From a virus, in IMG/VR virus record IMGVR_UViG_3300033182_000487, positions 49,149-113,148 of that record: a stretch of DNA of 64,000 bases; one strand, 5' to 3'. Under the pieces are notes generated by a model. It searched no databases. It was not told the origin of the DNA and saw only the letters and a program-made list of their open reading frames with translations. The position numbers were made by a program, and so were the translations under genes. Position 1 is the stretch's first letter; every line of letters begins with the position of its first letter. Shown here piece by piece: positions 8,529-56,887 of this stretch.

Positions 8529-9971
8529 ATGGCCCTCGACACGAAGTATCGGCCCCAGACCTACGGACAGGTGCTGGGTCAGGAGGCCGCTGTGGCCGTC
8601 CTGCGGCAGTTCGTTGTCGAGGGCCGTGGATTCCATCAGTCCTACGTCTTCTGCGGACAGCACGGTTCCGGCAAGACCACCCTGGGGAGGCTCCTCGCCA
8701 GGGCCTTGCTGTGCGAGGCTCCCGTTGATGGGGAGCCTTGTGACCAGTGCTCGTCCTGCACGACCTTCCTGAGCGGCGACGTCCACGAGTGCTTCGTGGA
8801 ACTGGATGCGGCAACGAAGTCCGGGAAGGCTGATCTCGCTCGCATCCTGGAGGACATCCAGTACTCCACGGTGTCGGGCAAGCGCCGCATCTACCTGTTC
8901 GACGAGTCCCATCGGTTGTCGAAGCAGGCGCTCGACGCCCTGTTGAAGCCGATGGAGGACAACGTGCTGGGGTCGGAGGACAAGCGGCTCGTTTGCATCT
9001 TCTGCACCACCGAGCCGGACAAGATGGTCAGCACCATCTTCTCTCGCTGCGCCCCGGCCTTCGTGATCCGCTCCGCACCCCACGCGGAGATCGTGAAGCG
9101 GTTGGGGTGGATCTGCGAGCAGGAAGGCATCGAGGCTGACCCCGAGGCACTGGAACTGATCGTCGAGCAGTCGGAGTCCCACATCCGGGATGCGCTCAAG
9201 ATGGTCGAGGGCGTGTCGATGCTGGGTGGGGTGACGCGGGAGAACGCGGCCACCTACCTCCAGGTGGGGTCCAACGACGGGGTGTTGGACCTTCTGGATG
9301 CTCTGGGGTCTGACCTCTCGGCAGCGGTCGAACGCGCCACCAGCCTCTCGCGAGAGGTGAGCCCAGCCTCCGCTTACGAGCGTCTGGCCGAGGCTGCTAT
9401 GCTGGCTTACCGGGTCCACCTCGGTGTGGCCGGACGAGTCCCGGCGAAGTGGGACGCGGAGAAGGTGGAGGTTTTGTCCTCACAGGGGTCTGCATGGTTG
9501 AATGTGGCTACTCGTTTCGCCGCACCCCCACACCGACCGACGAGACAGACACTGGTGCTGGACGTTGCGACCGCGCACCACTTTTTCGGGGGTCAACTGC
9601 ATCCACAGGCGGGGGGGATCCCCCTGCCACACCCCCCGCCTTCGGTTCCTACGGCTTCCCCGCCCCCGTCCACCAGAGAAACCCGAACACCGTCAACACC
9701 TTGTGATCCTCCCGTGGGTAATGTCGGACATGCTTCCACAGACTCCTCAGCACACCTCACCTCCTCCAACGTCTGGGTTGACCCCAGAGCGGTTGGTGGT
9801 GGTCCGCAGGATCGTGCTGCTCCCACCTCCAACCCAACCGCCCCTACCGGGTTGCACGTCCTCAATCCGAACGTCTTCCGTGAGTTGGTGCAGCACCACC
9901 TGCGGAGGCTGAGGCGTGGACGCACGGGATCAGACAACATGGGTGGTGCTGGAACTCAGCCATCATGGTGA
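8529..9971 (+). CDS. dnaX: DnaX-like clamp loader ATPase (gamma/tau)
   Basis: 480 residues, ATG with AGGAGG upstream. The N-terminal 210 residues are a AAA+ domain: KYRPQTYGQVLGQ at the start, Walker A GQHGSGKTT near 45, a zinc module ending CDQCSSC near 80, Walker B YLFDESHRLS near 125 and the FSRC motif near 180. A lid domain with the SESHIRDALKMVEG sensor-2 helix follows. The last 140 residues are proline- and threonine-rich and end with an LVQHHLRRLRR helix that overlaps the next gene by 56 nt. It loads the clamp from 4358. No delta subunit is seen in the window. Confidence 0.85.
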   Translation: MALDTKYRPQTYGQVLGQEAAVAVLRQFVVEGRGFHQSYVFCGQHGSGKTTLGRLLARALLCEAPVDGEPCDQCSSCTTFLSGDVHECFVELDAATKSGKADLARILEDIQYSTVSGKRRIYLFDESHRLSKQALDALLKPMEDNVLGSEDKRLVCIFCTTEPDKMVSTIFSRCAPAFVIRSAPHAEIVKRLGWICEQEGIEADPEALELIVEQSESHIRDALKMVEGVSMLGGVTRENAATYLQVGSNDGVLDLLDALGSDLSAAVERATSLSREVSPASAYERLAEAAMLAYRVHLGVAGRVPAKWDAEKVEVLSSQGSAWLNVATRFAAPPHRPTRQTLVLDVATAHHFFGGQLHPQAGGIPLPHPPPSVPTASPPPSTRETRTPSTPCDPPVGNVGHASTDSSAHLTSSNVWVDPRAVGGGPQDRAAPTSNPTAPTGLHVLNPNVFRELVQHHLRRLRRGRTGSDNMGGAGTQPSW

Positions 9972-10455
9972 GCGAGCCGCCGAGGAGGGGATCCTTGAAG
10001 AAATCCTCCGTGATCACGCGGACCTGGACTACGACCACCCGATCTTCATCCCGTACCTGACCTACACCTACCAGGGGAAGCGGACCCTGCTCTCCGTCAT
10101 GGAGGGCTACGTCTTCGTGGCGTCTGGCTTCGACGACGCCAGCCGCGACCACTTTGCCCGATCCCCCTACATCAAGAAGATCCTCACCCGAGGGGCCAAC
10201 CACTACTCCCCCTACGAGACCGTATCTCAGGCTTCGGTGGACTCTTTGCGCCACCGACTACGCGAACTGATGGCGGTCGAGATCCGGGAGGGGATGGAGG
10301 TCCGTATTGTGGATGGGCCACTCAGTGGTATAAGTGGGAGCGTGGTGGGGGTGTTTGATACACATGCGACCCTCCTCGTAGAGATGCGGTCCATACGCGC
10401 CATCCAATATCTTCCGTGCTTCCTCCTACGACCCGTGAGTGACGAGCATGAGTAA
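9916..10455 (+). CDS. NusG-like transcription elongation factor with KOW domain
   Basis: 179 residues from GTG 9916. The N-terminal 110 residues resemble a NusG N-terminal (NGN) domain: a WVVLEL first strand, a helix, a FIPYLTYTYQGK segment and the hallmark GYVFVASG. The C-terminal 55 residues form a KOW-type domain: IREGMEVRIVDGPLSGISG, then strands ending in LLRP. NusG binds RNA polymerase at the clamp and controls pausing and termination; RfaH and phage relatives act on chosen operons. Placed directly before the sigma-like gene, it is a candidate antiterminator for the long structural operons. Confidence 0.72.
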   Translation: MDARDQTTWVVLELSHHGERAAEEGILEEILRDHADLDYDHPIFIPYLTYTYQGKRTLLSVMEGYVFVASGFDDASRDHFARSPYIKKILTRGANHYSPYETVSQASVDSLRHRLRELMAVEIREGMEVRIVDGPLSGISGSVVGVFDTHATLLVEMRSIRAIQYLPCFLLRPVSDEHE

Positions 10456-11089
10456 CTATTGGTGCAGCCACATTGTCTTAGACCCCTCCGACATCGAGCG
10501 CATGTTCTCCAACGAGGACGGCCTCTCCACCTTCCCCGGCTCCACGGAGGAACTCTCGGACGAGAGCAAGGCCGAGTTGGAGCAGGTCAAGGGGGTGCTG
10601 GACCAGATCCCTCCCCGCGAAGCGGACTTCGTCGAACTCTACTTCTTCCAGCGCATCCGGCAGACCACCATCGCCTCGCTGTTCAACATCAGCCAGCCAA
10701 CCGTCTGCTACCGCCTGCAACGAGCCGCAGCCCGGATCCGCTACCTCCTCGACATGCCCAAGTACGACCCGTGGTTGATGGAGCAAGACCTCCGGGGCGT
10801 CCTCACTGACCCGAAGGACATCCAGATCATGATGGGCATGGTCGCCACGACCTGCCAGAGCGAGGTCGCGAAGGAACTCGGGGTCACGCAGGGCTTCGTC
10901 CGCCATCGGTACTTCCGCACCATCGGACGGCTCCAGAAGATGCGGGGGATGGAGCAGTACGTCCGGGTCTTTGAGCACGTCGCGGCGAACCTCAACATCC
11001 TCAAGGAGACCCACAGGTCGAAGTGGTCGGAGCCTGTGATCTACGTCGTCTCCGAGCACCCGACAGCGGTCGAAGCACAGCCCGCGTAG
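10448..11089 (+). CDS. Sigma-factor-like protein with two helix-turn-helix segments
   Basis: 213 residues from ATG 10448, overlapping the NusG-like stop. Residues about 50-100 match sigma-70 region 4: a PPREADFVELYFF helix, then the helix-turn-helix TTIASLFNISQPTVCYRLQ and a basic helix. A second helix-turn-helix (SEVAKELGVTQGFVRHRYF) lies near 140-160. No region 2, needed to melt the -10 element, is recognisable, so it may be a reduced sigma factor or a co-activator. Coupling to a NusG-like gene and sixteen copies of motif B make it the leading candidate for the late promoter-recognition protein. Confidence 0.68.
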   Translation: MSNYWCSHIVLDPSDIERMFSNEDGLSTFPGSTEELSDESKAELEQVKGVLDQIPPREADFVELYFFQRIRQTTIASLFNISQPTVCYRLQRAAARIRYLLDMPKYDPWLMEQDLRGVLTDPKDIQIMMGMVATTCQSEVAKELGVTQGFVRHRYFRTIGRLQKMRGMEQYVRVFEHVAANLNILKETHRSKWSEPVIYVVSEHPTAVEAQPA

Positions 11090-11097
11090 GGGTAGGT

Positions 11098-11112
11098 CGG
11101 TAGTCGCTCTAT
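11098..11112 (+). promoter_or_regulatory. Motif B promoter-like element
   Basis: CGGTAG at 11098, five bases, CTAT at 11109-11112. First copy after the sigma-like gene; the next start (11146) is 33 nt downstream. Confidence 0.6.
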
Positions 11113-11145
11113 TCCATTTCTCCTGTGAGACTTTGGAGCGAGAGC

Positions 11146-11466
11146 ATGGAAGACACGAAGACCGTATCTGTCCGCCGGGTCGCGATGGCGAAGCGGCTTG
11201 CGGCGAAGTGGATCCGATCTCACGCAGAGCCCGAGTACCGTCTCACGGTCTACCGGGGGTCAGGTCGTGAGTCCCGGAATCTGCCCGGACTGCTGCGGTC
11301 GTTCCGTGACGGCAAGATCAAGATCGCCGCGACCGAGCCAGTCCGCGACATGGGCATCAAGGCGGCCTTCGACCACATCACTGTCTGGTCGAAGGACAGG
11401 GAGGGGCTCCAGCGCCTCTCTGATGCCCTCCAGAAGATGGGCTGCGAAACCACAGGGGTCTTCTGA
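11146..11466 (+). CDS. Small basic protein with N-terminal RVA motif
   Basis: 106 residues; ATG 11146 follows GGAG at 11135-11138. Near the N-terminus it has RRVAMAKRLAAKWI, an arginine/alanine amphipathic helix like those found in many proteins of the virion module. The rest is a compact alpha/beta sequence with no recognised motif. It is the first gene of the late region and is probably a virion or internal capsid protein. Confidence 0.6.
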   Translation: MEDTKTVSVRRVAMAKRLAAKWIRSHAEPEYRLTVYRGSGRESRNLPGLLRSFRDGKIKIAATEPVRDMGIKAAFDHITVWSKDREGLQRLSDALQKMGCETTGVF

Positions 11467-11894
11467 TGGCAGCGTCCCTCGCCCAGTCTGAGTTCGTCTA
11501 CAGGTCGGGCACGAGCCCGGACATCTACACGTTCACCATCGTTTCCGATTCCCAGGGGAACCTGTCGGTGCGGGACATCGAAGACCCCTATGGGTTCGTG
11601 ATCTCGCCGTACACCCAGATCCCGCAGAGCGTGACCGCCGACATCTCCTCTGCCATGTCAGCCGTGGAGACTATTTTGGCACTCACATCAGCCGTCAACG
11701 GCACCCTGACCTTCACCGCTGAGACATCGAAGTCCGTGACCTTCGCCGAGGCGTTCGCCGACACCTCGTACCGAGTCCAGACGACCTCCGATGTCTTCGC
11801 CCCCTTCCGCATCACAAACAAGACCGTCCTGGGCTTCACCATCCAGGCCGGAGCCACCATCACCGGGACCGTCGGGTACGACGTCTTCGTGTGA
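11466..11894 (+). CDS. Beta-rich virion protein
   Basis: 142 residues, ATG overlapping the previous stop (TGATG). It is almost entirely short strands rich in T, S and V. The C-terminus (FRITNKTVLGFTIQAG, then TGTVGYDV) resembles the end of the fibre-like protein at 38354 (AIRNKTATEFRIEA, then TDTVGYSI), so the two share a small terminal beta domain. Likely a fibre, spike or decoration component. No enzymatic motif. Confidence 0.6.
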   Translation: MAASLAQSEFVYRSGTSPDIYTFTIVSDSQGNLSVRDIEDPYGFVISPYTQIPQSVTADISSAMSAVETILALTSAVNGTLTFTAETSKSVTFAEAFADTSYRVQTTSDVFAPFRITNKTVLGFTIQAGATITGTVGYDVFV

Positions 11895-11897: not shown

Positions 11898-11912
11898 CGG
11901 TAGCGAGCCTAT
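11898..11912 (+). promoter_or_regulatory. Motif B promoter-like element
   Basis: CGGTAG at 11898, CTAT at 11909-11912, spacer 5. It is followed by a GC hairpin (CCCCC-GT-GGGGG, 11914-11925) and the start at 11942. Confidence 0.6.
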
Positions 11913-17700: not shown

Positions 17701-18203
17701 CCCGAGTGCGCGGGTTCCACCGAGCCAAGAAGGACGCCTGGAAGGTCATCGTCCTCCAGAAGATCATCCAGCGTGACCCCACCATCAACACGCTGACCCT
17801 GACTGGCACCTACGCCGTGGGTCAGAACCTCCAGTCCTTCACCAACGTCATCCATCTCGACCGTGACGACTGGTCCAACGAGACCATGAAGCAGCGGTCC
17901 GCCCGTGCATGGCGCGCTGGGCAGAGCGAGATCGTCAACGAGTACACCATCGACACCGTGTACCAGGACGCCGTGTCCAACGACGACGCGGACAAGACGC
18001 TCGACGAGATCCGCAGGATCATCCAGGGCATGGATGCCGATCTGTTCAACGAGGTCGTCCTGGAGTCCCAGGTCGCTCGACTGGGCGAGGAGTGGGCCGA
18101 GGTCAAGAAGCAGCGGTCCATGCTCCACCAGGTTGACCGCCAGATGATGGAACGCGCCCTCTCACCCTACGCCAGCCAGATGGGCCGACAGGAGAAGCCA
18201 TGA
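14790..18203 (+). CDS. Virion-module SNF2-type DEAH helicase
   Basis: 1,137 residues; ATG 14790 overlaps the previous stop (TGATG). The N-terminal 540 residues are of unknown function. A superfamily 2 helicase core follows: Walker A LDTGVGKTGVAV near 560, a VCKRAL motif Ia-like strand, DEAH near 651, LLTASPM (motif III) near 680 and the motif V-VI region near 1,015-1,040 with LDRDDWSNETMKQRSARAW, typical of SNF2 translocases. Placement between structural genes suggests a virion-packaged or injected DNA translocase. Such proteins in other phages act on host chromatin or restriction systems. The exact role here is not known. Confidence 0.78.
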   Translation: MPPRPSMASMAVSDRAFMQYLRTFGRNPKIVDLVQIYKDLKDNFDGEIIEGEVEDGDETVARDDWFRRFQRALLQMELEVDAEPSINAIDDKGSEIKTLLRRLGSQGKLSANLWRRLIPAYSELLRTLVADKDLYWAPRAIPGRDGVRWIQLRNASPKQRVVEQVRRDDPALYERIQMSKDQRSSMDDKINKRIGKMGLETGRQRIRGRFIQVGVDPALIPNTVTVRETYREADPDNPRKKIRKTRTYTLSREEAMERLDDPSVVASLPSESVLVFDDDGSVASREDFTAKVDAVNDAYKGLSKINQLVHKKRGGKGYAYIDPEELRSVGREEFEEAFGANPKPDEYVALTDDPYKSTALTKIYPVKEYRGKQIITAGRFKGYYVSDLVNRAGRLIEGSSTYYNPDTGEIDRREVTNEDGSVNVRKITEPYVTVDRGKLLLTLEGGTGKSALLRQSVRQLTRVVPSIVYEEGTKNRVFRFDPKDFAAIREAIGAMALSNTASRMLQKYFDKLAKAERATSEQSIKRYSKEKLGLTVNLREQQAQAVAWLDANDNTGICALDTGVGKTGVAVATMQNLRRKPDVMKEGNGRFLFVCKRALAGNLPKEIFKFVEGAQADELVEMTDIVTYFTFSKNRDKDENWGDDYVAIFFDEAHERLKKMESAFYKKISACKARRKILLTASPMVRSPKEVFTLASVANGVDLNTKEGRAALRKFTNRFAETVGGRVVGIKRVDDSTFAYKNYVRAEEEAGRVPLSREEWPGQVDPIVTRDFNSWVKSNLFYADKRDVMDEEGKKLEELNVREPETVNMTPEVEKIYRKTMKDVVKALREVTQKKYKGNRALAIEAAKVKLRRELALLTRLSDVPNLVIPGQPNPKIDRAQSIVEQASGRSILFTDSPDMAKAAFDQLSTMPGKGTAMALSDGIYMQPVRGEMIRFTAKKYPDFDKKAGKGRGFLLKYENGMAKVVRNENPRVRGFHRAKKDAWKVIVLQKIIQRDPTINTLTLTGTYAVGQNLQSFTNVIHLDRDDWSNETMKQRSARAWRAGQSEIVNEYTIDTVYQDAVSNDDADKTLDEIRRIIQGMDADLFNEVVLESQVARLGEEWAEVKKQRSMLHQVDRQMMERALSPYASQMGRQEKP

Positions 18204-18484
18204 ACATCACCGATCCGGTCACCGTCGAGGAGTGGGGCCAGTACATCAGCAAACTGAGCGGGGCGAAGTTGTTTTCGCAGGCCATCGCCGCCAACACCCT
18301 CGACTTCGTGTTGGGGTTGCAAGAGGAAGGCTTTGGCAGCGACGAGATCACTGACATCCTGCTCATGTTCGCCCGCCAGTTCGACAAAGTCGATCTGGAC
18401 CTTCCCAACGGCATCCCTGGCGAGTACCTGTCCTACCCGGACCTGCTCGACTCGGTAGACCGTCTATCAGCCTCCCAGACGTAA
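18200..18484 (+). CDS. Small acidic helical protein
   Basis: 94 residues, start overlapping the helicase stop (ATGA), so probably translated together with it. Mostly helical and acidic; no motif recognised. The 3' end of the gene contains a motif B promoter for the next gene. It may be a partner of the helicase. Confidence 0.6.
   Translation: MNITDPVTVEEWGQYISKLSGAKLFSQAIAANTLDFVLGLQEEGFGSDEITDILLMFARQFDKVDLDLPNGIPGEYLSYPDLLDSVDRLSASQT
18453..18467 (+). promoter_or_regulatory. Motif B promoter-like element inside a coding end
   Basis: CGGTAG at 18453, CTAT at 18464-18467, spacer 5. It lies within the last codons of the preceding gene, 31 nt before the start at 18499. Confidence 0.55.
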
Positions 18485-18845: not shown

Positions 18846-18860
18846 CGGTATCTCGCCTAT
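18846..18860 (+). promoter_or_regulatory. Motif B promoter-like element
   Basis: CGGTAT at 18846, CTAT at 18857-18860, spacer 5; one mismatch in the first box. The next start is 18914. Confidence 0.55.
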
Positions 18861-18913: not shown

Positions 18914-20143
18914 TTGTTCGCTACCCTCACCGAAGCCCTCAAGCGGCGCATGATCGAGGAGATCCGGTACTACTGGGGCCAAGACCCGAAGTACAGGGAC
19001 TCGCTCGTGCCCAACATCCAGGGCAAGTTTTCCTTTCGGGAGCGACCACAGCAGGCCATCATCCTCAAGAGCCAGTCGGCCAGCCCCTTCCAGATGGCGG
19101 CGGACCACTACCAGGGGGCCATCGTCTCCTACTGCTACCTCACGAGGGTGTACGGGCAGCGAGGCACGAGCATCGAGTGGGTGCGGGAGAACGCGGTCGC
19201 CATCCAGGCCAACAGCGGTCTGTTCCCCTCGGCTCCGGGCGTCTACTACATCGAGGTCCGCTCCGAGGTCATCGACGTGCGCGGGGTGCCGAAGGAGAAG
19301 TTGGTCTTCTATGTGGACCCGCTCCTGGAGGTCATTGACCAGCGGCCCACGATGCTTGACCCCAGGCTCTACGAGGTCGCGGCGCAGTCGTTCCACCCCG
19401 GCTCGCTTCGGGTGTACGAGATGCCGGGGAACATCCCCTACTACGAGGACGTCAACTACACGGCTGACCCCACCACGGGCAGGATCACTCTTGCCAGCCC
19501 GTTGAAGCCCAACACCTACTTGTCGGTGGACTACCGCTACGCGGGAACCAGCACAGGGCCGTTCCCGCTCCCGGAGAACGGCTCCAACGTCCACGCCATC
19601 CCTGGCGTCGTGCTGGCCTTCGGTCGCCGAGCCTACGAGGGCGACATCATGGCGGTTGTCGTCGCCAATCGACGCGAGACCGTGGCGAAGGAGTTTGGTG
19701 GTCGGTGGGAGATGAACATCGACTTCGACATCATGGCGCGGGACGTCTACGCCCAGGGCGAGATCACGGACCGCACGATGATGTACCTGTACACCGACGC
19801 GAGGGACCGACTCTCGACCGAGGGCATCGAGATCACGATGGTCACGATGGGCGGCGAGGCCGAAGAAGTCTACGACGACGTGGGCGACGACTACTTCTAC
19901 ACGGCCAACATCTCGATGACGATCATGACCGACTGGGCCATCCATGTGCCTATCGGACGGACCCTGCTCAGGGCCGAGCCCAACACCGTGTCTGAGACCG
20001 AGATGGTCGCAGGTCTCACGGATGATCAGTTGGTCGAGATGGGGTCACCTACCGGGCTGCACTACGCGGAGTCGTTGAACCTCGTCCAGATCCGTGATCC
20101 CTACTTCCGGGGGCGCACGAAGACCTACGACCTGATCCGGTAG
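18914..20143 (+). CDS. Structural protein, tail or baseplate-like, unknown role
   Basis: 409 residues from TTG 18914, which follows GGGAGG by about nine bases. It is strand-rich with aromatic residues and contains a unit ending in TADPTTGRITLASPLKP and a YLSVDYRYAG strand, resembling the repeats in the tail sheath protein. No catalytic motif. The stop codon TAG is also part of the following motif B. Probably a tail, neck or baseplate component. Confidence 0.6.
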   Translation: MFATLTEALKRRMIEEIRYYWGQDPKYRDSLVPNIQGKFSFRERPQQAIILKSQSASPFQMAADHYQGAIVSYCYLTRVYGQRGTSIEWVRENAVAIQANSGLFPSAPGVYYIEVRSEVIDVRGVPKEKLVFYVDPLLEVIDQRPTMLDPRLYEVAAQSFHPGSLRVYEMPGNIPYYEDVNYTADPTTGRITLASPLKPNTYLSVDYRYAGTSTGPFPLPENGSNVHAIPGVVLAFGRRAYEGDIMAVVVANRRETVAKEFGGRWEMNIDFDIMARDVYAQGEITDRTMMYLYTDARDRLSTEGIEITMVTMGGEAEEVYDDVGDDYFYTANISMTIMTDWAIHVPIGRTLLRAEPNTVSETEMVAGLTDDQLVEMGSPTGLHYAESLNLVQIRDPYFRGRTKTYDLIR

Positions 20144-20152
20144 CCATCCTAT
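20138..20152 (+). promoter_or_regulatory. Motif B promoter-like element
   Basis: CGGTAG at 20138 (its TAG is the stop of the previous gene), CTAT at 20149-20152, spacer 5. Next start 20181. Confidence 0.6.
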
Positions 20153-20629: not shown

Positions 20630-20644
20630 CGATAGCCTCTCTAT
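20630..20644 (+). promoter_or_regulatory. Motif B promoter-like element
   Basis: CGATAG at 20630, CTAT at 20641-20644, spacer 5. The endolysin start follows at 20683. Confidence 0.55.
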
Positions 20645-22421: not shown

Positions 22422-22436
22422 CGATACCCCGTCTAT
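22422..22436 (+). promoter_or_regulatory. Motif B promoter-like element for the tail sheath gene
   Basis: CGATAC at 22422, CTAT at 22433-22436, spacer 5. The leader up to 22531 contains a GGTAGG downstream of CTAT, as in the copies at 51482 and 56873, and a small CTCAG/CTGAG hairpin. Confidence 0.55.
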
Positions 22437-27699: not shown

Positions 27700-27737
27700 G
27701 CCCCAATACAAACGAGCAGCGTTTAGGTTGCTAATGA

Positions 27738-27777
27738 CCCTCCGGTCGGGTAGATTCCCGACCGGAGGGTTTCGTTT
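27738..27777 (+). terminator. Rho-independent terminator after tail sheath
   Basis: A perfect 13-bp stem (27738-27750 with 27757-27769), 6-nt loop and TTTCGTTT. The right arm contains GGAGG, placed about 9 nt before the ATG of the endonuclease gene at 27778. Confidence 0.88.
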
Positions 27778-29672: not shown

Positions 29673-29687
29673 CGGTAGGGAGCCTAT
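29673..29687 (+). promoter_or_regulatory. Motif B promoter-like element
   Basis: CGGTAG at 29673, CTAT at 29684-29687, spacer 5. Next start 29733. A related site at 29284 (CGGTAG with TGTT instead of CTAT) is not counted. Confidence 0.6.
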
Positions 29688-29732: not shown

Positions 29733-30179
29733 ATGCCCCGCATCATCACCGCCGCTGACCGATCTGCTCTCATTCGTCTGGCGAGCACCCTCCCTGCGGG
29801 CTCTGAGGAGCGGAAGGTGATCCTCGCCGGGTTGAAGCAGGCCCGCGCCCCCCGTGAGAACCAGACGGCTGGTCGCCTATCGGCTGATATGCGGAAACGA
29901 GAGGACGAGATCGAGTTCCTGTCCAGCGCGGGCGGCAAGGTGTTGAAGACCTACAGGAGCGTCTGGATGGAAGCCGCGAGGCTGGCGGAAACCTATGAGG
30001 GGTCGCCAAGTTACTCCCCTGATAGTGATTGGGGTGTTGAACAGGATCAGCGGGAGATCACGAACCAACTTGGTATGCAGGCGGCATCACTGAGGCAGAC
30101 GGCACAAAGGCTTCGGCAGTTGGTTGATGAACTGGAATCCTTCGCCGCTCAGGCGAAGAAGGTCGCTGATTCGTTCTAA
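29733..30179 (+). CDS. Coiled-coil protein with N-terminal LIRLASTLP motif
   Basis: 148 residues; ribosome site TAGGAG. Residues 7-35 carry ADRSALIRLASTLPAG and then ERKVILAGLKQA, nearly identical in layout to the proteins at 7126 and 18499. The rest is a long helix pair (RKREDEIEFLSSAGG, then TAQRLRQLVDELESFAAQ), probably a coiled coil. Unknown function, likely virion-associated. Confidence 0.6.
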   Translation: MPRIITAADRSALIRLASTLPAGSEERKVILAGLKQARAPRENQTAGRLSADMRKREDEIEFLSSAGGKVLKTYRSVWMEAARLAETYEGSPSYSPDSDWGVEQDQREITNQLGMQAASLRQTAQRLRQLVDELESFAAQAKKVADSF

Positions 30180-30180: not shown

Positions 30181-30195
30181 CGGTAGCCTCTCTAT
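30181..30195 (+). promoter_or_regulatory. Motif B promoter-like element
   Basis: CGGTAG at 30181, CTAT at 30192-30195, spacer 5. Next start 30221 with AGGAG. Confidence 0.6.
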
Positions 30196-33027: not shown

Positions 33028-34989
33028 ATGGGTCTGGCTGACATCGCCGCCGCAGTCGGTCGGCGGTCCTCTACGTCTGACTCCGATGCCGTAGACATCA
33101 TCACGTTCATCGAGGCTCCGTGGGGTCTCGGGCTCAAACTGTTCCCGGTGCAGAGGATCATCCTCAAGGCGCACTATGGAATGGCACTGGACGACAACCA
33201 ACTGGGCATCCCCCTGGACATCCCGGTTGACCAGACGCACCCCCAGTGGAACGACTCGTGGGCCGAGCACCTGGACGACGAGGGCTACTACAAGTGGCGC
33301 ATCGTGGTCACCGACTTCCGCCGCGAGAACACCGAGTGCATGACAGAGGCGGGCTACCTCCGCTTCCTCTACGACGAGGGCCGGTGCAACATCCGGGAGG
33401 TCGTGCCCGGCCACCAGCGCCGGGAGATGGTCCTGTCCGTGGGCCGACGGTCCGGCAAGACCCTGATCACATCGTGCGTGGTCGCCTACGAGACGTACAG
33501 GCTGCTGCTCAAGGGCAACCCCCAGAAGGTCTACGGCTCGTCCCAGAGCAACGTGATCCAGTTGATCTCGGTCGCGACCGACCGGGATCAGGCCGGGCTG
33601 CTGTACCGCGAAGCCAGCGGCCACTTCACGAAGTGCGACTTCTTCAAGCCCTACGCAGCCAACGCCACTCAGTCCTTCGCGACGTTCCAGACCCCGTTCG
33701 ACATCGAGCGGTACGGCTCCTACGCGGACAACCAGAAGGCCAGATACTCCATCAACGTCACCTTCCGCTCCTGCGTGGCGAAGGGGCTCCGTGGTGGTGC
33801 CAACCTCCTGGTCGCGCTCGACGAGGTTGCTCACTTCGGGGAGAAGGGGCAGGCCAGTGCCGACGAGGTCTACCAGGCGGTCGAGCCGAGCACTCGTACA
33901 TTTAGTCCCAAAGATCCAAAAAACCCAACCCGCCCGATTGGTGAGAACGAGGGTCGGATCATCCTGATCTCGTCACCGCTGGGCAAGCAGGGCCTTTTCT
34001 ACAAGCAGTACCGGTTGGGCTTCGGCAACAACAAGGCCGCCGACAACCTGATCTGCATCCAGGCCCCGACCTGGGAGGTCAACCCGACGGTGCCTGCCGA
34101 GACGTTCGTGGCGTCCTACCTCAAAGACCCCAACGTCTTCTTCACCGAGTTCGGGGCCGAGTTTAGCGACCGCACGAAGGGGTGGATCACGGACAAGGCT
34201 GATCTCGTCGCCTGCATCGACCCAGACCTGCGCCCGAAGCACAGTGCCCCTGCCCGGATGCCCCACTTCATGGGCCTCGACGTCGCGTTGGTGGGCGACT
34301 ACACGTCCGTCGCCATCGGACACAACGACGCCAACGGCAACGTGGTCCTCGACTACATCGACAGGATCAAGGCGGGCGAGGGGGACTACGAGCACCTCGA
34401 CCGACTGGAGTTCGACGACGTGGCCGACTGGGTCTATGACCTCAGCCGCAAGTTCTACATCAGCGAGGGCATGTTCGACCAATGGTCCGGCATCCCCATG
34501 GAGCAGGCGTTGAAGAAGCGCGGCCTCTCCACGCTCAAGTCGGTCCACCACACCCGGAACCTGTCGAGCCAGATGTTCCAGAACTTCAAGAACCTCATGC
34601 TCGACAAGAAGATGACCCTGTACGACTGGCCCATCCCGGACGGGGATGACCACTCGGCTCACATCGCCGAGTTGCTGGAACTCCAGGCCGAGTTCATCAG
34701 CAAGTACATCATCAAGGTCGAGGCCCCCAAGGTCGAAGGCAAGCACGACGACCTCTCGGACGCCCTGGTCCGCATGGTGTGGGTCGCCACGAACAACTCG
34801 GCGAAGCGGGTAGTCCTCGCCGGGCACCGCCGAGGGAACATGGGCCCCTCGGCTTCCTCTGGGGCGGGATCACGGTTCGGTCGTGTCCCTACCTCGCTCA
34901 AGGGTCGCTCTGGCTCTCACCCGGACCGCCAGATCCCGAAGACGCGGCGCGGGGGTGGACGAGGTTGCGGCGGTTCCGGTAGGCGGTAG
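33028..34989 (+). CDS. terL: Terminase large subunit
   Basis: 653 residues. ATPase: Walker A VGRRSGKT near 138-145, Walker B LLVALDEVAHF near 258-268 and the coupling motif ISSPLGKQG near 313. Nuclease: first aspartate in MGLDVAL near 417 and the later HDDLSDALVRM near 573-583, as in RNase H-like terminase nucleases. It cuts concatemeric DNA and pumps it into the prohead through the portal at 35915. A patch of unusual codons lies at 33892-33931, after Walker B. The C-terminal 50 residues are basic, serine/glycine-rich and probably disordered. Confidence 0.92.
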   Translation: MGLADIAAAVGRRSSTSDSDAVDIITFIEAPWGLGLKLFPVQRIILKAHYGMALDDNQLGIPLDIPVDQTHPQWNDSWAEHLDDEGYYKWRIVVTDFRRENTECMTEAGYLRFLYDEGRCNIREVVPGHQRREMVLSVGRRSGKTLITSCVVAYETYRLLLKGNPQKVYGSSQSNVIQLISVATDRDQAGLLYREASGHFTKCDFFKPYAANATQSFATFQTPFDIERYGSYADNQKARYSINVTFRSCVAKGLRGGANLLVALDEVAHFGEKGQASADEVYQAVEPSTRTFSPKDPKNPTRPIGENEGRIILISSPLGKQGLFYKQYRLGFGNNKAADNLICIQAPTWEVNPTVPAETFVASYLKDPNVFFTEFGAEFSDRTKGWITDKADLVACIDPDLRPKHSAPARMPHFMGLDVALVGDYTSVAIGHNDANGNVVLDYIDRIKAGEGDYEHLDRLEFDDVADWVYDLSRKFYISEGMFDQWSGIPMEQALKKRGLSTLKSVHHTRNLSSQMFQNFKNLMLDKKMTLYDWPIPDGDDHSAHIAELLELQAEFISKYIIKVEAPKVEGKHDDLSDALVRMVWVATNNSAKRVVLAGHRRGNMGPSASSGAGSRFGRVPTSLKGRSGSHPDRQIPKTRRGGGRGCGGSGRR

Positions 34990-34998
34990 GGTGCCTAT
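34984..34998 (+). promoter_or_regulatory. Motif B promoter-like element
   Basis: CGGTAG at 34984 (its TAG is the terminase stop), CTAT at 34995-34998, spacer 5. Next start 35024. Confidence 0.6.
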
Positions 34999-37620: not shown

Positions 37621-37635
37621 CGGTAGTCCGCCTAT
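37621..37635 (+). promoter_or_regulatory. Motif B promoter-like element
   Basis: CGGTAG at 37621, CTAT at 37632-37635, spacer 5. Next start 37663 with AAGGAG. Confidence 0.6.
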
Positions 37636-38297: not shown

Positions 38298-38312
38298 CGG
38301 TAGTGACGCTAT
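38298..38312 (+). promoter_or_regulatory. Motif B promoter-like element
   Basis: CGGTAG at 38298, CTAT at 38309-38312, spacer 5. Next start 38354. Confidence 0.6.
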
Positions 38313-38353: not shown

Positions 38354-39913
38354 ATGGCCCAGCCTCCCTTCCTCGTAGACGAACTCCAGATCGAACCTGG
38401 TAGCGGTGACACCCTCACCCTGTCGCGGGATTCGACCGACGGGGCGATGAAGTTCGTTGACGCTGTGCTCACCTCTGGTGCGCTGCTCCCGAATCTCGTC
38501 GGCCTGCGGAACGTCACCGGGGTCTACATCGTGGGCCGCGCTGGCGACGGTGCTCCCTACACGAGCATCCAGGACGCCCTCGACGCCGTGCCGGACTCGT
38601 CCAGCGCGGCGGCTCCCTCACTGATCATGATCCTGCCGGGGCTCTACACGGAGAACGTGACCATCCAGAAGGACGGCGCGTATCTCGTAGGACTCGGTGG
38701 GGTCACACTCACCAACAGCGGCGCGAGCGACACCGTCGAGATCAGCGCCGCCGTCACCACGACCCCGCAGGACGTCCTGCTCCGAGGACTCAAGATCCAG
38801 AACACCTCGGCGGCCCAGTCCTGCGTGAGGATCATCGGAGCCGACTCGTTCGCTTCGGGAACCGTCACAGTGAACGCTGCGCCACTGGCTACCGGGGACA
38901 CCATCACCATCAACGGCATCGCGCTCACCGGAACTGCTGGGGTCAGGACGTCCGGGAGCAACGATTTCTCGGTCAGCAGCGGCACCACGGACGGCATCGC
39001 CGCTGAGATCGTCGCAGCCATCAACGACACGGCCAACTCGTTTGCCACGCTCGTCGAGGCATCCGCTCTGCTCAACGTGGTCACCTTCACGGCTGTCACC
39101 GCAGGGTCCGGCGGCAACGCCATCACCCTCGCTGTGAGCACCACGCCTCCGGGCAACATGACCCCATCAGGAGCCAACCTCGCTGGAGGCGGCTCTGCGG
39201 GCTCCCTCGTGGGCAACGGGGTCATCACCATCGAGGACTGTGAACTGCTGGCAGCGGGCGCTGCGGGCTACCAGGTCCGAGCCGACACCTCGGGCCACAT
39301 CCGGGTCCGTGGCGGCACCTGGCGCGGCAGCGACAACGCCAGCCTCTCGACCGCTTCCAACTGCGCCCTCTTTTCGGTGGCCGACGTCGAGTGGGCCAAC
39401 GACTTTGAGGTCGCCTACGACACCACGGCAGACCGCCCCGCCGACACCACCTGCGAGTACGAACTCCTGAGCGTGGGTCGGATCAACGGCGTCCTGTCCA
39501 ACCTCTCGGGTGCAGGATCACTCGCCCTCAAGAACTGCCCTGAGACGGCAAGCGTGAGCCAGGACGGGGACCAGACCCTCAATGCCTACCTCTCCACGTT
39601 GGGCGCATTGACCCTCAACGGCACGACTGTGGCCACCCTCTACGGCAGCACACGGACCACCGCGACTCAGGCTGGTGGCAGTCCCACGCTGGCCGAGCCT
39701 CACGTTCGGGGTGAGAGGGCCTTTGCGGCGTCCGCGTCCGAGACCATCACCTTCGACATCCCCGCCCCGGACACCAACTACACGGTGCTGGTGGAGAACC
39801 CGTCACCGACAAGCACTCTGGCGATTCGGAACAAGACAGCCACGGAGTTCCGCATCGAGGCCACCCCGGCCCTCACGGACACCGTTGGCTACTCTATCGT
39901 CCGCAGCCTGTAG
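38354..39913 (+). CDS. Beta-helix tail fibre or spike-like protein
   Basis: 519 residues. Near 65 it has YTSIQDALDAVPDSSS and then a MILPGLYTENVTI strand, the entry of a pectate-lyase-type right-handed beta helix as in many tailspikes. A second domain (about 175-275: GDTITING, then AAEIVAAINDT) shared with the protein at 31554 appears inserted in the helix. The C-terminal domain (TITFDIPAPDTNYTVLV, AIRNKTATEFRIEA) is shared with the protein at 11466. Probably a surface-binding fibre or spike. No catalytic residues could be assigned. Confidence 0.68.
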   Translation: MAQPPFLVDELQIEPGSGDTLTLSRDSTDGAMKFVDAVLTSGALLPNLVGLRNVTGVYIVGRAGDGAPYTSIQDALDAVPDSSSAAAPSLIMILPGLYTENVTIQKDGAYLVGLGGVTLTNSGASDTVEISAAVTTTPQDVLLRGLKIQNTSAAQSCVRIIGADSFASGTVTVNAAPLATGDTITINGIALTGTAGVRTSGSNDFSVSSGTTDGIAAEIVAAINDTANSFATLVEASALLNVVTFTAVTAGSGGNAITLAVSTTPPGNMTPSGANLAGGGSAGSLVGNGVITIEDCELLAAGAAGYQVRADTSGHIRVRGGTWRGSDNASLSTASNCALFSVADVEWANDFEVAYDTTADRPADTTCEYELLSVGRINGVLSNLSGAGSLALKNCPETASVSQDGDQTLNAYLSTLGALTLNGTTVATLYGSTRTTATQAGGSPTLAEPHVRGERAFAASASETITFDIPAPDTNYTVLVENPSPTSTLAIRNKTATEFRIEATPALTDTVGYSIVRSL

Positions 39914-39921: not shown

Positions 39922-41160
39922 ATGAGCAACCACGACGACTTCTGGACCAGCCTGGCTGCGGGCCACACCAACACGGTGCTGGCTGGCGCGATGGACTCCC
40001 ACCTGTCGGGCAAGAGCATCGACGAGTCGTTCGGCTCCGTTCGCACCCTGACCGACGTTCACCGACAGGCCAACGCGCTCTCCCTCCCCGTCGAGGCGGG
40101 CACGAAGGTCGTGTTCGCTGGCGGCCTGGGCGCGCACATGTCCTACGACGACGTGCCTGCTGATGGGATCACGGGCGAGGTCGTCACGGTCAAGTCCGCC
40201 ACGGGGAGCATCACCCACCACGACGGCAAGGTCTTCGTGAAGTGGGCCGACGGCAAGTTCCGTCCCATCCACGCCGAGCACCTGCGACTGGCTGGGCACG
40301 GCAAGCAGGCTTCCGGCAACACCCTCAAGGTTCTCCGTGACGGTCGCGAATACTGGATTGAGAGAGGTGGTCACCACCGTACATGGGATGATCGGTTCAA
40401 GGGCCCCTTTACCGCTGCTGATGTCGTCGGAGAAGTGGAGAAGCGCCTCAAGAAGGATCCTGATGTGGTCGTCATGGGGCGCAATCACTCTCTTGGTCGG
40501 AGCGGTGCGGCAGACGCATACAGTACGGCACCCTTCGTCATCCTTGACCGCAGGGGTGATGTGGTCGATGAAGGCTACACCCTTGAAGGTCTTTGGAATA
40601 AGTGGTTCGACCGCTTCCTCGGTTGGAGGATGGCTTCCTCGATTCAGGCATCCGACGTCAAGGCGACGTTTGAGAAGATCAAGGCCCTGGCCGAGAAGAA
40701 GCCGAAGAACAAGTTCCTCAAGGACTTGCTCAAGCAGATGGCCGACGAGGGCTTCACTCCCACCGAGAAGCAGATGAAGGTGGTGAAGGAGATCGAGGGC
40801 GAGATCGAGCAGCAGTCCGAGATGAAGAAGGAGTTGAAGGGCCTCGACAAGGACGCCGCGTTCGACCCGAGCATCATCGGCGAGAAGAAGGGTGGCCCGG
40901 TCGAGCATGACCCCGAAGACAAGAACATCATGAGGCACTTCGGTCAGGGCGACCTCCACGGCATGGCCGAGATGGTCAAGGGCAAGACGGCAACCTTCCG
41001 GGTCGCCAGCCTCGGCGACCTCACCCAGTTCCTCAAGGTCGCGGACGGCACACTGGTCCACAAGAGCACCAAGGATCTCTGGTCCTTCAACAAGGACGCC
41101 GACGGCAACTTCCTCGTCTCTCGGCTGTTCGACGACGAGGGCGAGCCCTTGAAGGTGTGA
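39922..41160 (+). CDS. Virion-module protein with SH3-like domain and coiled coil
   Basis: 412 residues. Residues 50-125 form an SH3/KOW-like barrel (GTKVVFAGGLGAHMSYDDVP, GEVVTVKSATG, VFVKWADGKFRPIHAEHLR), seen in other phage virion proteins. Residues about 133-240, encoded at 40321-40640, use a less biased codon set and look like an inserted domain. A long charged coiled coil follows (KKPKNKFLKDLL to KKELKGLDKD), then a C-terminal beta unit. Function unknown. The next gene starts inside its stop (GTGA). Confidence 0.6.
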   Translation: MSNHDDFWTSLAAGHTNTVLAGAMDSHLSGKSIDESFGSVRTLTDVHRQANALSLPVEAGTKVVFAGGLGAHMSYDDVPADGITGEVVTVKSATGSITHHDGKVFVKWADGKFRPIHAEHLRLAGHGKQASGNTLKVLRDGREYWIERGGHHRTWDDRFKGPFTAADVVGEVEKRLKKDPDVVVMGRNHSLGRSGAADAYSTAPFVILDRRGDVVDEGYTLEGLWNKWFDRFLGWRMASSIQASDVKATFEKIKALAEKKPKNKFLKDLLKQMADEGFTPTEKQMKVVKEIEGEIEQQSEMKKELKGLDKDAAFDPSIIGEKKGGPVEHDPEDKNIMRHFGQGDLHGMAEMVKGKTATFRVASLGDLTQFLKVADGTLVHKSTKDLWSFNKDADGNFLVSRLFDDEGEPLKV

Positions 41161-42614
41161 CCTTGTCTGCTGTGTCCCTATCGAGGACCGCTTCACGCTT
41201 CTCCGACCAGTACGAGTCTGCGGGGACGCTGGGTGGCGTGGACCCATCCCTTGCGAAGGAGATGGCTCAGTCCGGGTTGCTGGACGGCGACTCGGAGGAC
41301 GACAAGATCCCCACGTCGTCGAAGCCCATCAAGTCCGTCCAGTTGAACCCATCGCAGACGACCCTCGTGCTGAAAGACGTGGTGGGCATCGCTCTGGAGA
41401 TGCTGCTCAAGCGGCAGGGCCTCGGGGAAGACCTGGGAGCCCTGGTGTCCTCCGACCGCTACATCATGGACGGGCACCACCGCTGGGCCGGGAGCATCCT
41501 CGCTCATGGCCCACGAGCCTCAGTGAAGGTGTGGCTGTCCTCCCTGCCGGGGAAGGAACTCGTCCGGGTGTTGAACATCGTGAGCAAGGGGGCCTATGGG
41601 GTCACCTCCGGGAACACAGGCACCGGGTCCATCAACGACTTGACCCCAGCCAACGTCCGCCGCCAGTTGGAGACGTTCCTCCGCGAGGGGCGGCAGCACA
41701 AGCATTTCTCACCCTCAGCCGAGCAGGTGGCGAAGATCCTGGAGACCAACTTCGGGTCGGTGGAGAACGGGGTCAACGTGCTCGCCGAGCGGGCGAAGTT
41801 GATCCCGAAGGCGGTCCCCTCCTGGGCCCCTGTCCGGGACCAGATGCCGGTCATCCGCCGGAAGAAGGTCCAGGACGCAGCGAAGTTGCTCACTCAGGGG
41901 GTGGTGGACTGGGCCCCGCCCTACTCCGACTCCGAGCGCAGGGCTTCATTCGGTAGTGCGTCTATGGCCCCCCTCCCCGTAGGAGAGACATCCATGCGTC
42001 CTGATCCCACCCGCGTTGCAGCCCGATACGCTTCGCAGTCGAAGACTGCTGGCATGGTCCGTACTGCGGGCGAGGTCCGCTTCATCAAGGACCGCAGCGG
42101 TGACGCTGGCGAGTGGGCTTTCGGCCCTCCCGGTCCCAGCGAGCGTGACATCCAGCAGGACTTCGTGTTCAACGCGAAGCACCTCAAGCCACTGGCCCAG
42201 ACCCTCCGGTCTGCGCTGATGGCCCTCGGTCACGTCACCAGCGCCTACAACAAGTTCGTCAAGATCAAGAGCCGCAACGTGTCCCCCGACGGGTCGCTGG
42301 GCGGCAAGGGGTACATTCAGAAGATCCCCGACATGCGACGGCAACTGATGAACTGCGTGGAAGCACTCTCCGCTCTGACCGACACCATCTACGACGAGAT
42401 GACTGCACCTCACTGGAACCCCACCGAGGACACCCTCGACCCCCGCGACCGTGAGGAGGTCAAGGAGATCATCGAGGACGCCGAGGAGATCAAGGACGAT
42501 CCCGAGGCGTGGGCGTCCGGTCAGGAAGAAGAACTCGACGCGGAAAACGAGGAGGCGATGGGCAAGACCGCTCGCCGTGTGATGCTTCGGTACGCGAACA
42601 GGAGGCTCGCATGA
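41157..42614 (+). CDS. ParB-like domain protein fused in frame to a second virion protein
   Basis: 485 residues from GTG 41157. Residues 1-260: a SLSRTASRFSDQ start and a ParB/sulfiredoxin-like domain with YIMDGHHRWAG near 102-112, the family's nucleotide-binding motif. Residues 261-279 are the translation of what looks like an intergenic region: it contains a perfect motif B at 41951 and the ribosome site AGGAG before ATG 41994. Residues 280-485 are a second, separate-looking protein ending in TARRVMLRYANRRLA. A TAG stop lies in another frame inside the motif B. This may be a recent gene fusion by indel. Confidence 0.65.
   Translation: MTLSAVSLSRTASRFSDQYESAGTLGGVDPSLAKEMAQSGLLDGDSEDDKIPTSSKPIKSVQLNPSQTTLVLKDVVGIALEMLLKRQGLGEDLGALVSSDRYIMDGHHRWAGSILAHGPRASVKVWLSSLPGKELVRVLNIVSKGAYGVTSGNTGTGSINDLTPANVRRQLETFLREGRQHKHFSPSAEQVAKILETNFGSVENGVNVLAERAKLIPKAVPSWAPVRDQMPVIRRKKVQDAAKLLTQGVVDWAPPYSDSERRASFGSASMAPLPVGETSMRPDPTRVAARYASQSKTAGMVRTAGEVRFIKDRSGDAGEWAFGPPGPSERDIQQDFVFNAKHLKPLAQTLRSALMALGHVTSAYNKFVKIKSRNVSPDGSLGGKGYIQKIPDMRRQLMNCVEALSALTDTIYDEMTAPHWNPTEDTLDPRDREEVKEIIEDAEEIKDDPEAWASGQEEELDAENEEAMGKTARRVMLRYANRRLA
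41951..41965 (+). promoter_or_regulatory. Motif B promoter-like element inside a reading frame
   Basis: CGGTAG at 41951, CTAT at 41962-41965, spacer 5. It lies inside the open frame 41157-42614, 28 nt before an internal ATG with AGGAG. Confidence 0.6.
41994..42614 (+). CDS. Internal-start product of the fused gene: RVA-motif protein
   Basis: 206 residues if translation begins at ATG 41994 (AGGAG at 41981). The start DPTRVAARYASQSKTAG and the end ARRVMLRYANRRLA are both copies of the recurring RVAxRY motif. The middle is helical, with LKPLAQTLRSALMALGHV and an acidic DREEVKEIIEDAEEIKDD region. It has the same layout of promoter, leader and start as other late genes, so it is probably made separately even if the longer fusion also is. 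Confidence 0.5.
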   Translation: MRPDPTRVAARYASQSKTAGMVRTAGEVRFIKDRSGDAGEWAFGPPGPSERDIQQDFVFNAKHLKPLAQTLRSALMALGHVTSAYNKFVKIKSRNVSPDGSLGGKGYIQKIPDMRRQLMNCVEALSALTDTIYDEMTAPHWNPTEDTLDPRDREEVKEIIEDAEEIKDDPEAWASGQEEELDAENEEAMGKTARRVMLRYANRRLA

Positions 42615-51481: not shown

Positions 51482-51496
51482 CGGTAGGGTTTCTAT
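51482..51496 (+). promoter_or_regulatory. Motif B promoter-like element
   Basis: CGGTAG at 51482, CTAT at 51493-51496, spacer 5. GGGTAGGAC follows 17 nt after the start of CTAT. Next start 51567. Confidence 0.6.
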
Positions 51497-56759: not shown

Positions 56760-56782
56760 GCCTCTCGGCTGGAAGACCCCTC

Positions 56783-56817
56783 AAACGCCCTGTCAGGCCC
56801 GCCCTGACAGGGCGTTT
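56783..56817 (+). terminator. Terminator after the scaffold gene
   Basis: A perfect 15-position stem (56783-56797 with 56803-56817), 5-nt loop, with A and T tracts at its base. It separates the scaffold operon from the capsid operon. Confidence 0.85.
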
Positions 56818-56872
56818 GTCCGTTCACGGTCCGACTTTTCCGCCTACCGGACAGACTTTGTGGATTCGGTTT

Positions 56873-56887
56873 CAATACCCGTCCTAT
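56873..56887 (+). promoter_or_regulatory. Motif B promoter-like element of the capsid operon
   Basis: CAATAC at 56873, CTAT at 56884-56887, spacer 5. GGGTAGGAC follows, as after the copy at 51482. It drives the capsid genes after the terminator. Confidence 0.55.

Follow-up and report, generated by a model that had tools for sequence, protein, structure and literature searches.

CGGTAG-N5-CTAT, a candidate late promoter core in a lineage of huge phages encoding a tandem sigma-region-4-like protein and a NusG-like partner

The NusG-like and sigma-like genes and their distribution

The window, as we call the whole 64,000-nt stretch of viral DNA analysed here (part of a parent contig of 113,148 bp), carries adjacent genes for a NusG-like and a sigma-like protein, and a series of sites matching CGGTAG-N5-CTAT (Table 1). 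Two helix-turn-helix (HTH) segments had been claimed for the sigma-like gene, and our analyses bore this out. The protein matched Sigma70_r4 (PF04545, E 4e-12), and AlphaFold predicted two tandem bundles resembling sigma region 4 (aa ~38-101 and ~108-163), with pLDDT mostly 80-95 over aa 40-183 and low confidence in the N-terminal 35 residues. Foldseek matched the model to sigma region 4 and ECF sigmas, and the recognition helices of the HTHs are nearly invariant. Pfam gave no match to sigma region 2 in this protein, which implies that another factor must melt the DNA.

The call of its neighbour as NusG-like stood on weaker ground, since PF02357 (E 0.0017) and KOW (0.05) remained below the Pfam cut-offs, but a KOW-like motif, GMxVxVxDGxxxGLxGxVV, is kept in 11 members and the protein matched phrog_6386, 'transcription antiterminator' (3e-5). 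A role of the NusG-like factor in antitermination is plausible.

Table 1. Genes and candidate promoter elements, in window coordinates
Feature	Position	Strand	Remarks
Second-class element	1341..1368	+	before 1400, then SbcD-like 2046
Second-class element	4040..4067	+	before 4092, then sliding-clamp gene 4358
Doubtful 4-nt-spacing variant	7077..7090	+	ahead of ATG near 7136
Second-class element	7222..7249	+	called start of TOPRIM gene (7259) only some 9 nt away
Second-class element, GGGGGT-N18-GGTA	7982..8009	+	fronts operon ending in NusG-like, sigma-like
NusG-like protein (NGN + KOW), 179 aa	9916..10455	+	GTG start, supported by homologs
Sigma-like protein, 213 aa	10448..11089	+	Sigma70_r4 match
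Late-type site	11098..11112	+	exact; directly after sigma-like gene; gene start 11146
Late-type site	11898..11912	+	exact; gene start 11942
Late-type site	18453..18467	+	exact; within end of ORF 18200-18484; gene start 18499
Late-type site (CGGTAT)	18846..18860	+	1 mismatch; gene 18914-20143
Late-type site	20138..20152	+	exact; probable true start 20181 (SD AAAGGAG)
Late-type site (CGATAG)	20630..20644	+	1 mismatch; endolysin-like gene 20683 (endolysin families)
Weak late-type site (CGATAC)	22422..22436	+	2 mismatches; 1722-aa gene 22531
Late-type site	29673..29687	+	exact; gene start about 29733-29763
Late-type site	30181..30195	+	exact; C39-peptidase-like gene, start about 30221
Late-type site	34984..34998	+	exact; behind large terminase gene; followed by gene 35024 and portal 35915
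Late-type site	37621..37635	+	exact; gene 37663
Late-type site	38298..38312	+	exact; gene 38354
Weak late-type site (CGTTGG)	39883..39897	+	2 mismatches, PWM 14 bits; gene 39922
Late-type site	41951..41965	+	exact; inside ORF 41157-42614; probable true start 41991
Late-type site	51482..51496	+	exact; gene 51567
Doubtful site CAATACCCGTCCTAT	56873..56887	+	3 mismatches; ahead of 56990, with major head protein gene at 57614
Late-type site (CGGTGG)	61692..61706	-	1 mismatch; 27 nt before called start of minus-strand gene 61330-61662

The two genes are neighbours, and the sigma-like gene occurs together with the motif throughout the lineage, which comprises 60 IMG/VR loci and genomes of up to 618 kb. 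In LR745208, and in 22 IMG/VR loci with the single exception of L034, a NusG-like ortholog immediately precedes the sigma-like gene. LR745208 is the sole named phage in which an ortholog of the sigma-like protein was detectable, and a DNA search against named phages gave zero matches. Relatives were also present on four contigs of bacterial or archaeal MAGs, two of them only 3-4 kb long and the other two longer than 120 kb; these are possibly binned phage DNA and tell nothing about the host.

Number, spacing and placement of the sites

All the positions listed in the initial annotation could be read in the sequence, 11 of them as exact copies, compared with 0.02 +/- 0.14 expected from shuffles. 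The remainder held in part: the sites at 18846, 20630 and 22422 are imperfect, 56873 is weak and 7077 has the shorter spacer, and the list had overlooked the minus-strand site and the weak one at 39883. Note that CAATACCCGTCCTAT is like the CAAT...CTAT forms found behind the sigma-like gene of the relatives L141 and L147. With up to one mismatch the window contains 15 sites (0.96 expected), and the parent contig has 16 exact copies (13 on the plus and 3 on the minus strand) and 0 of the reversed pattern. The shuffle expectation and the reversed-pattern count rule out a chance origin. Moreover, the spacing is as strict as had been claimed: in the parent contig, CGGTAG and CTAT are five bases apart at 16 sites and four at one, with zero sites at any other spacer from 0 to 11. 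The element is a compact 15 bases whose boxes lie one helical turn apart. No information was seen, and no conserved -35 box found, upstream of CGGTAG, and we found no description of CGGTAG-N5-CTAT in published work on huge or jumbo phages.

When five genomes were pooled (related contigs up to 297 kb), about 140-150 sites lay on the coding strand, mostly 22-45 nt before the start codon, with a mode of 25-31 nt when measured from CTAT. The claimed placement in leaders was confirmed by counting 148 matches upstream of 654 genes and 0 in an equal coding stretch of the same genes. Because the gene caller was home-made, any one start codon may be misplaced, but the conclusions draw on a large number of genes. 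In the window, 20151 is probably not the start belonging to the site at 20138, its ATG falling within CTATG, and the probable start at 41991 is based on the LR745208 ortholog of 216 aa (alignment over 178 aa).

Sites are oriented with the genes: 95 of the 274 tandem gene gaps carry a sense site and 1 an antisense site, and sites were present in 29/45 divergent and 2/19 convergent gaps. Seven divergent gaps contain copies in both directions, some back-to-back; the copies of one pair are 9 bp apart and those of another overlap as CTACCGGTAG. Where copies stand back-to-back or overlap, the divergent gaps measure about 109 bp and offer no space for -35 boxes, so that the element has the look of a promoter core sufficient in itself. 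Its position close to the start codon, at an almost constant distance, would also suit an RNA-level element in 5' leaders, a translation or processing signal. We regard this as very improbable, since the same divergent gaps have no space for separate promoters, the fixed 11-bp phase suits double-stranded DNA and no other upstream promoter was found. Many asymmetric sites aligned with transcription could likewise recall the directional, stoperator-like repressor sites of a lysogenic phage, but this is hardly credible: the sites occupy the required core-promoter place and no separate promoter was seen. No lysogeny genes were seen among the proteins examined.

The sites are conserved at orthologous genes between the window's contig and G001 (18/22). 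With LR745208, at about 30% protein identity, the comparison gave 4/10 versus 1/37 (p 0.005), and with the G019 genome no conservation at orthologous sites. In the 42 loci outside the own clade, CGGT-N7-CTAT occurred 23 times upstream and 0 times in coding sequence, other spacings giving 3 or fewer; in relatives, spacings were counted with CGGT (and TAR) and CTAT over all distances. The site lists of divergent relatives were seeded with known motif parts, and their base preferences are biased. In most members a late-type copy lies 3-18 nt behind the sigma-like gene, and 30/52 distinct loci have one there with at most one mismatch of 8 (shuffles, 0.64). The replacement of CGGTAG by CGGTTTT goes together with a K in the second HTH (6/8 K rows; two are without it); because it arose once on the tree, we gave this covariation little weight as proof of binding.

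Gene content and a second class of elements

The sites precede virion and lysis genes (terminase, portal, endolysin), and from this content we infer that the CGGTAG-N5-CTAT genes are late ones. In 40 kb of the late region sigma70-like promoters were at chance, and sigma70 promoters were rejected as drivers of the late genes; terminator-like sites in 40 kb were also near chance, with one clearly strong.

These frequencies bear on the idea that CGGTAG is the loading site of an antitermination complex of the lambda Q or GafZ type, where the sigma4-like protein would bind between -35 and -10 of promoters that a different sigma opens, and leave with the NusG-like factor and the polymerase. Caulobacter GafZ offers a parallel, a sigma-like HTH protein with a proposed element between -10 and -35 and with NusA, NusG and NusE, and the likeness extends to lambda Q (PMC11150451). 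Co-encoding with a NusG-like factor, and a weak match of the sigma-like protein to the Q-like family phrog_79 (2e-4), point the same way. However, GafZ and lambda Q use sigma70 promoters with -35 and -10 boxes and have one target cluster, whereas the lineage element is widespread, is itself the core and fronts many short late units instead of standing once before a long cluster. With no conserved -35, sigma70-like promoters not above chance and terminators near chance, we find this explanation improbable.

The initial annotation had overlooked a second promoter class. Replication genes and the DnaX-NusG-sigma operon are preceded by a different promoter-like element, GGGGGGT-N17-19-CGGTA (modelled with spacers 17-19). 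Among 651 genes, 143 carry only the late-type element, 80 only the second-class element and 1 both; second-class genes include the clamp (4358-5509 in the window), UvsX, RuvC-like, SbcD-like, TOPRIM and DnaX-like genes. The -10-like box of this class, CGGTA, resembles CGGTAG.

Candidate factors and a proposed late switch

RNA polymerase beta' (PF04998) had no match in 12 contigs, including some of 485-618 kb, and matched in 14/14 controls; a phiKZ-type multisubunit polymerase of the phage's own was rejected on this basis, although very divergent forms could escape PF04998. PF00940, the domain of T7-type single-subunit RNA polymerases, gave no match, yet neither did the control genomes. Sigma54 promoters, TGGCAC-N5-TTGC, also have boxes one turn apart. 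They share the 6-5-4 layout of the late-type element with different bases, but a sigma54-type promoter was rejected, as no RpoN DNA-binding domain (PF04552) exceeded the cut-off in the 12 contigs (9/14 controls matched).

An unannotated, divergent ECF-like sigma is encoded outside the window, in G006, G022/G013, G019, LR745208 and 16 IMG/VR loci. Its best fold matches are ECF sigmas, none at E <= 0.001, its Pfam matches are below cut-off, and against 3mzy (sigma-H) it gave E 4.7e-5. ECF promoters have their -35 about 16-17 bp upstream. That this sigma alone uses the late-type sites, the tandem-sigma4 protein doing otherwise, would fit its conservation, its ECF fold and 3mzy matches and the likeness of the two CGGTA boxes; we nevertheless consider it unlikely, because the -35 architecture suits GGGGGGT-N17-19-GGTA and not the 11-bp late-type element, and the ECF-like gene itself bears a second-class element in several members.

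The reading that we prefer, with a probability of about 0.6 on the sequence evidence, is that the tandem-sigma4/NusG pair redirects host RNA polymerase to late promoters, the tandem-sigma4 protein being the dedicated late factor. CGGTAG-N5-CTAT would be the complete core of these promoters, to which host polymerase is sent late in infection. One or both HTH domains of the tandem-sigma4 protein would most likely sit on the CGGTAG box while the protein touches the polymerase in the manner of sigma region 4, and CTAT, one turn downstream, would be the melted -10 element, transcription probably starting 6-9 nt after it. The boxes could also be reversed in role, with CGGTAG as the -10 and CTAT at the start site. 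The initial annotation had suggested that the sigma-like protein may read both boxes; as it has no region 2, melting would be due to the sigma-2 domain of another protein, the best candidate being the phage ECF-like sigma, or else the sigma of the host. The NusG-like partner, translated from the mRNA that also encodes the tandem-sigma4 protein, would travel with the polymerase along the late operons. The pair and the replication genes would be made from the middle-type promoter at 7982, and the first late site, 8 nt past the sigma-like stop codon, suggests a simple middle-to-late cascade. Against this reading, the ECF-like sigma is also lineage-wide, and the motif need not belong to the tandem-sigma4 protein. 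A tentative version, to which we give limited credence, splits the initiation factor between two proteins: the ECF-like sigma with its sigma2 domain and the separate tandem-sigma4 protein would jointly read two boxes exactly one turn apart, without a -35, on promoters compact enough for two to overlap back to back. Being made along with a NusG of its own, the tandem-sigma4 protein would couple initiation to processive elongation in the late programme.

Huge phages are mostly known only through metagenomes. For a lineage in which we found no RNA polymerase, the sequence by itself gives an explicit programme of gene timing, with two promoter classes and their exclusive gene sets, an operon holding the likely switch, and a motif and protein conserved in genomes of up to 618 kb; late control in uncultured huge phages thereby becomes testable in vitro. 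If the sigma4-only protein is indeed the late factor, a -35-less promoter would be read here by a sigma-like activator that has no domain for melting.

T4 late promoters also lack a -35 and consist of a TATAAATA box. That -10 element is absent here, where a GC-rich two-box element and a tandem region-4-like protein stand in place of the TATAAATA box and the region-2-like gp55. As described in the part of PMC6024815 consulted, the T4 late factors (gp55, gp33 and the clamp gp45) are made in the middle period, and the likeness lies in a multi-part factor, made at that time, that acts on host polymerase.

The phage sigmas phiEco32 gp36 and 7-11 gp47 redirect host polymerase to late-gene promoters (PMC8948821, in part). 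The gp36 promoter is likewise one compact element that lacks a -35, and the 7-11 -10 box, aCTA, resembles CTAT; the promoters differ (tAATGTAtA and GTAAtg-16-aCTA), gp36 is one protein without region 4 whereas the window protein has region 4 twice and no region 2, and the same part of that paper describes no NusG partner for gp36 or gp47. Finally, minimal single-HTH sigma factors exist in jumbo phages that have no polymerase of their own, with no promoter motif described for them in the part of PMC7824862 consulted; in the present lineage there are two HTHs in tandem, a NusG-like protein and a defined promoter-like element.

The CGGTAG-N5-CTAT element and its conservation

The 113,148-bp IMG/VR parent contig (window, bases 49149-113148) is part of the genome of an uncultured huge phage. 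Its large terminase shares 55% identity with the one in LR745208.1, a 485-kb metagenomic phage that lacks annotation; identity to other named phages was below 30% among the matches listed, and a DNA search against named phages gave no near-identical match. The sigma-like protein retrieved 22 IMG/VR loci as a single query and 60 as an alignment, on contigs reaching 618 kb. Five contigs form the close clade: the parent contig, G006 (297 kb), G001, G005 and G004.

The CGGTAG-N5-CTAT motif claimed in the initial annotation proved real. The window holds 11 exact copies, compared to 0.02 in dinucleotide shuffles, and 15 with at most one mismatch, compared to 0.96. The whole contig has 16 exact copies (13 plus, 3 minus) and no copy of the reversed control pattern. 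When the gap between the fixed boxes was varied from 0 to 11, matches in the contig fell almost entirely at a gap of 5 (16 copies), with a single one at 4 and no others. Upstream of the 16 exact copies, T is preferred before CGGTAG, with otherwise no information; downstream, the Shine-Dalgarno zone is the sole signal. A weight matrix built from the close clade was then scanned up to 140 nt 5' of called starts, with an equal-length stretch inside the same genes as control. Across 654 genes there were 148 upstream matches and 0 coding matches, so the motif is not as frequent inside genes as in leaders.

In related contigs, TAG-N5-CTAT occurred at spacing 5 in 8 (G008/G007), 19 (G022), 8 (G019) and 16 (LR745208) copies, with 0-4 at other spacings. 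Beyond the close clade, 42 distinct loci yielded 23 upstream occurrences of CGGT-N7-CTAT and none in coding sequence; any other spacing gave at most 3. Orthologous genes keep the site in 18 of 22 cases between the parent contig and G001, and in 12 of 17 with G006. With LR745208 (~30% protein identity) it was kept in 4/10 versus 1/37 (p 0.005), and with G019 no site conservation was seen at orthologous genes. We also surveyed the 75 nt 3' of the sigma-like stop codon in 52 distinct loci: 30 carry CGGT-N7-CTAT (at most one mismatch of eight) 3-18 nt past the stop, compared to 0.64 in shuffles (maximum 3). Most of the others have weaker forms, other spacings gave 0-5, and in some loci the downstream gene is not the same.

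Promoter-like geometry and two leader classes

Among intergenic gaps of at least 40 bp, 274 are tandem: in 95 of these the element faces the downstream gene, and in 1 it faces the opposite direction. It occurs in 29 of the 45 gaps between divergent genes and in 2 of the 19 between convergent ones. Seven divergent gaps have one copy per gene. The two copies are 9 bp apart in one divergent gap of G006, and overlap, sharing CTACCGGTAG, in one of G001. This leaves no room for separate -35 boxes, which argues that the whole promoter core would be 15 bp plus the start region. The motif could instead be an RNA element, but these back-to-back and overlapping copies disfavour that reading. We put at about 0.9 the probability that the CGGTAG-N5-CTAT sites are promoters of a late gene set.

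Dyad counting in the close clade, after masking this first class and an early-gene element, gave a second leader element, GGGGGGT-N17-19-CGGTA, with 0 coding matches at the cut-offs shown. Among 651 genes, 143 have the first class only, 80 the second only and 1 both. The second-class block of the contig comprises a RecD/Dda-like helicase, RuvC-like resolvase, UvsX, SbcD-like nuclease, Cas4-like exonuclease, sliding clamp, TOPRIM protein and clamp loader. Its final copy, at 7982, precedes a tight run (metallopeptidase, DnaX-like, NusG-like, sigma-like), and the first class starts 8 nt past the sigma-like stop codon, standing before genes and operons that encode endolysin, terminase and portal, along with many unnamed proteins. 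Judged from this split, the switch genes appear to be of middle type and the genes they likely control of late type.

As occurs with T4 gp55/gp33, phiEco32 gp36 and phage 7-11 gp47, the system would work as a phage late switch. According to PMC8948821, gp36 promoters have a single -35-less element, tAATGTAtA, and gp47 promoters are GTAAtg-16-aCTA. Sigma54 shares the layout of CGGTAG-N5-CTAT but not the machinery; a search of 12 contigs gave no RpoN match above cut-off. The literature found on huge or jumbo phages held no description of the motif or of the tandem-sigma4/NusG pair.

Coordinates of features in the window and in related contigs
Sequence	Position (strand)	Feature
Window	7136; 18499	small proteins, N-termini MTPSDHKALIRLAST / MKSLTASDRKTLIRLAST
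Window	9916-10455 (+)	NusG-like
Window	10448-11089 (+)	sigma-like (tandem-sigma4)
Window	27736-27771	intrinsic terminator, 15-bp stem
Window	57614-58486	major head protein
Window	58645-60639	ORF behind head gene
G006	226947-227055	divergent gap, copies 9 bp apart
G001	108380-108488	divergent gap, overlapping copies
G006 (locus L117)	107571-108488 (-)	ECF-like sigma; also at L120-L135
G006	e.g. 95963, 113885, 207568	~40-bp element, 23 places
LR745208.1	e.g. 1605, 12947, 25759	GATTTC element, 60 places
LR745208.1	154162-154614	second tandem-sigma4 copy

Candidate factors for the two classes

A domain search with the 213-aa sigma-like protein gave a Sigma70_r4 match (4e-12) and none to region 2; since region 2 is missing, the protein is not strictly a sigma70-family member. 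The two helix-turn-helix (HTH) segments noticed earlier in its gene appear in the AlphaFold model as helical bundles (residues ~38-101 and 108-163, pLDDT mostly 80-95), and its Foldseek matches comprise ECF sigmas as well as region 4 of sigma factors (E 0.012 at best; TM to target, by domain, at most 0.85). Recognition segments SQPTVCYRLQRA and QGxVRHR are near-invariant down to 45% identity, consistent with an invariant target. The NusG-like gene lies directly 5' in 21 of 22 loci (the exception being L034) and in LR745208. RpoE of an RNA-guided transcription complex (PDB 9n9q chain C) weakly matches both HTH domains together (profile E 0.31, fold E 0.012), and the second LR745208.1 copy is diverged (41% identity). 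Minimal single-HTH sigma factors occur in other jumbo phages, according to survey PMC7824862.

No RNA polymerase beta' was found across 12 contigs; a search for the T7-type polymerase domain matched neither these nor the control genomes. A faint region-2 signal led to a putative ECF-like sigma, unannotated, ~300-430 aa long and encoded outside the window; its fold resembles ECF sigmas, and its sequence matches sigma-H 3mzy (5e-5). It has a long N-terminal extension and the core ...GYDPEDVLQEIYKGLLVRN...SSFGHYVHMVCGCIVSNYHRR..., and is conserved in the lineage; it goes undetected at the Pfam cut-off. Its gene has a second-class element in several members.

Host polymerase would transcribe from both classes. 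The second may be served by the ECF-like sigma: it has a -35-like and a -10-like box separated by a spacer that varies by 1-2 bp, an arrangement that suits such a factor. The -10-like box lies 19 nt from the start codon at the 5th percentile. For the first class, which lacks a -35, the minimum distance to the start codon is 31 nt from CGGTAG and 22 nt from the CTAT end (5th percentile 25, 25th percentile 27). Because of these minima we favour CTAT as the -10, placing CGGTAG at about -22 to -17. This matches the binding zone proposed for Q- and GafZ-type sigma-like proteins (PMC11150451), which by analogy makes the tandem-sigma4 protein the best candidate reader of CGGTAG; CTAT would be handled by a region-2 domain of another protein. 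Of the late programme initially proposed, the late-gene promoters and the tandem HTH protein adjoining a NusG-like factor are supported, while the reading of both boxes by one protein is less likely, as region 2 is missing. The sole specificity change seen is a CGGTTTT variant, present in 6 of the 8 rows whose HTH2 carries K; being a single event on the tree, it cannot decide this division of labour. We consider it reasonably likely that the tandem-sigma4/NusG pair is the dedicated factor of the late promoters.

Additional leader elements and neighbouring genes

The G006 element, GGGGGGTTCAACTC-GCCCCCC-TATCTCCGTATAGGAG, is strongly conserved, has two possible hairpins, often follows terminator-like sequences and precedes small ORFs, which are probably early. 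The LR745208.1 element, GATTTC-N-CTAAAAA-N15-CCGATAGGG, ~15-21 nt before small ORFs, is early-type and distinct from that of G006. G019 (618 kb) has early-type TTGAC-N17-CATACT promoters with embedded TATCAC at ~24 places in L109-L113; they often lie just ~5 nt from the start codon, so their transcripts are probably leaderless. At 26 places near start codons, G022 has GTAAACTT-N14-GCGTAGA, perhaps the counterpart of the second class.

In the window, the two small proteins resemble each other at their N-termini and are possibly paralogs; each gene is preceded by a late-type site or variant. The strong terminator follows a 1722-aa gene; elsewhere in the late region, terminator-like sites come close to the number expected by chance. 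The major head protein shares 85% identity with its LR745208 counterpart, compared to 56-62% for terminase and portal and 30-50% for most other proteins. The ORF behind it, in a stretch without gene-caller calls, has unusual codon use, matches LAGLIDADG homing endonuclease and DNA methyltransferase families, and is probably an acquired element.
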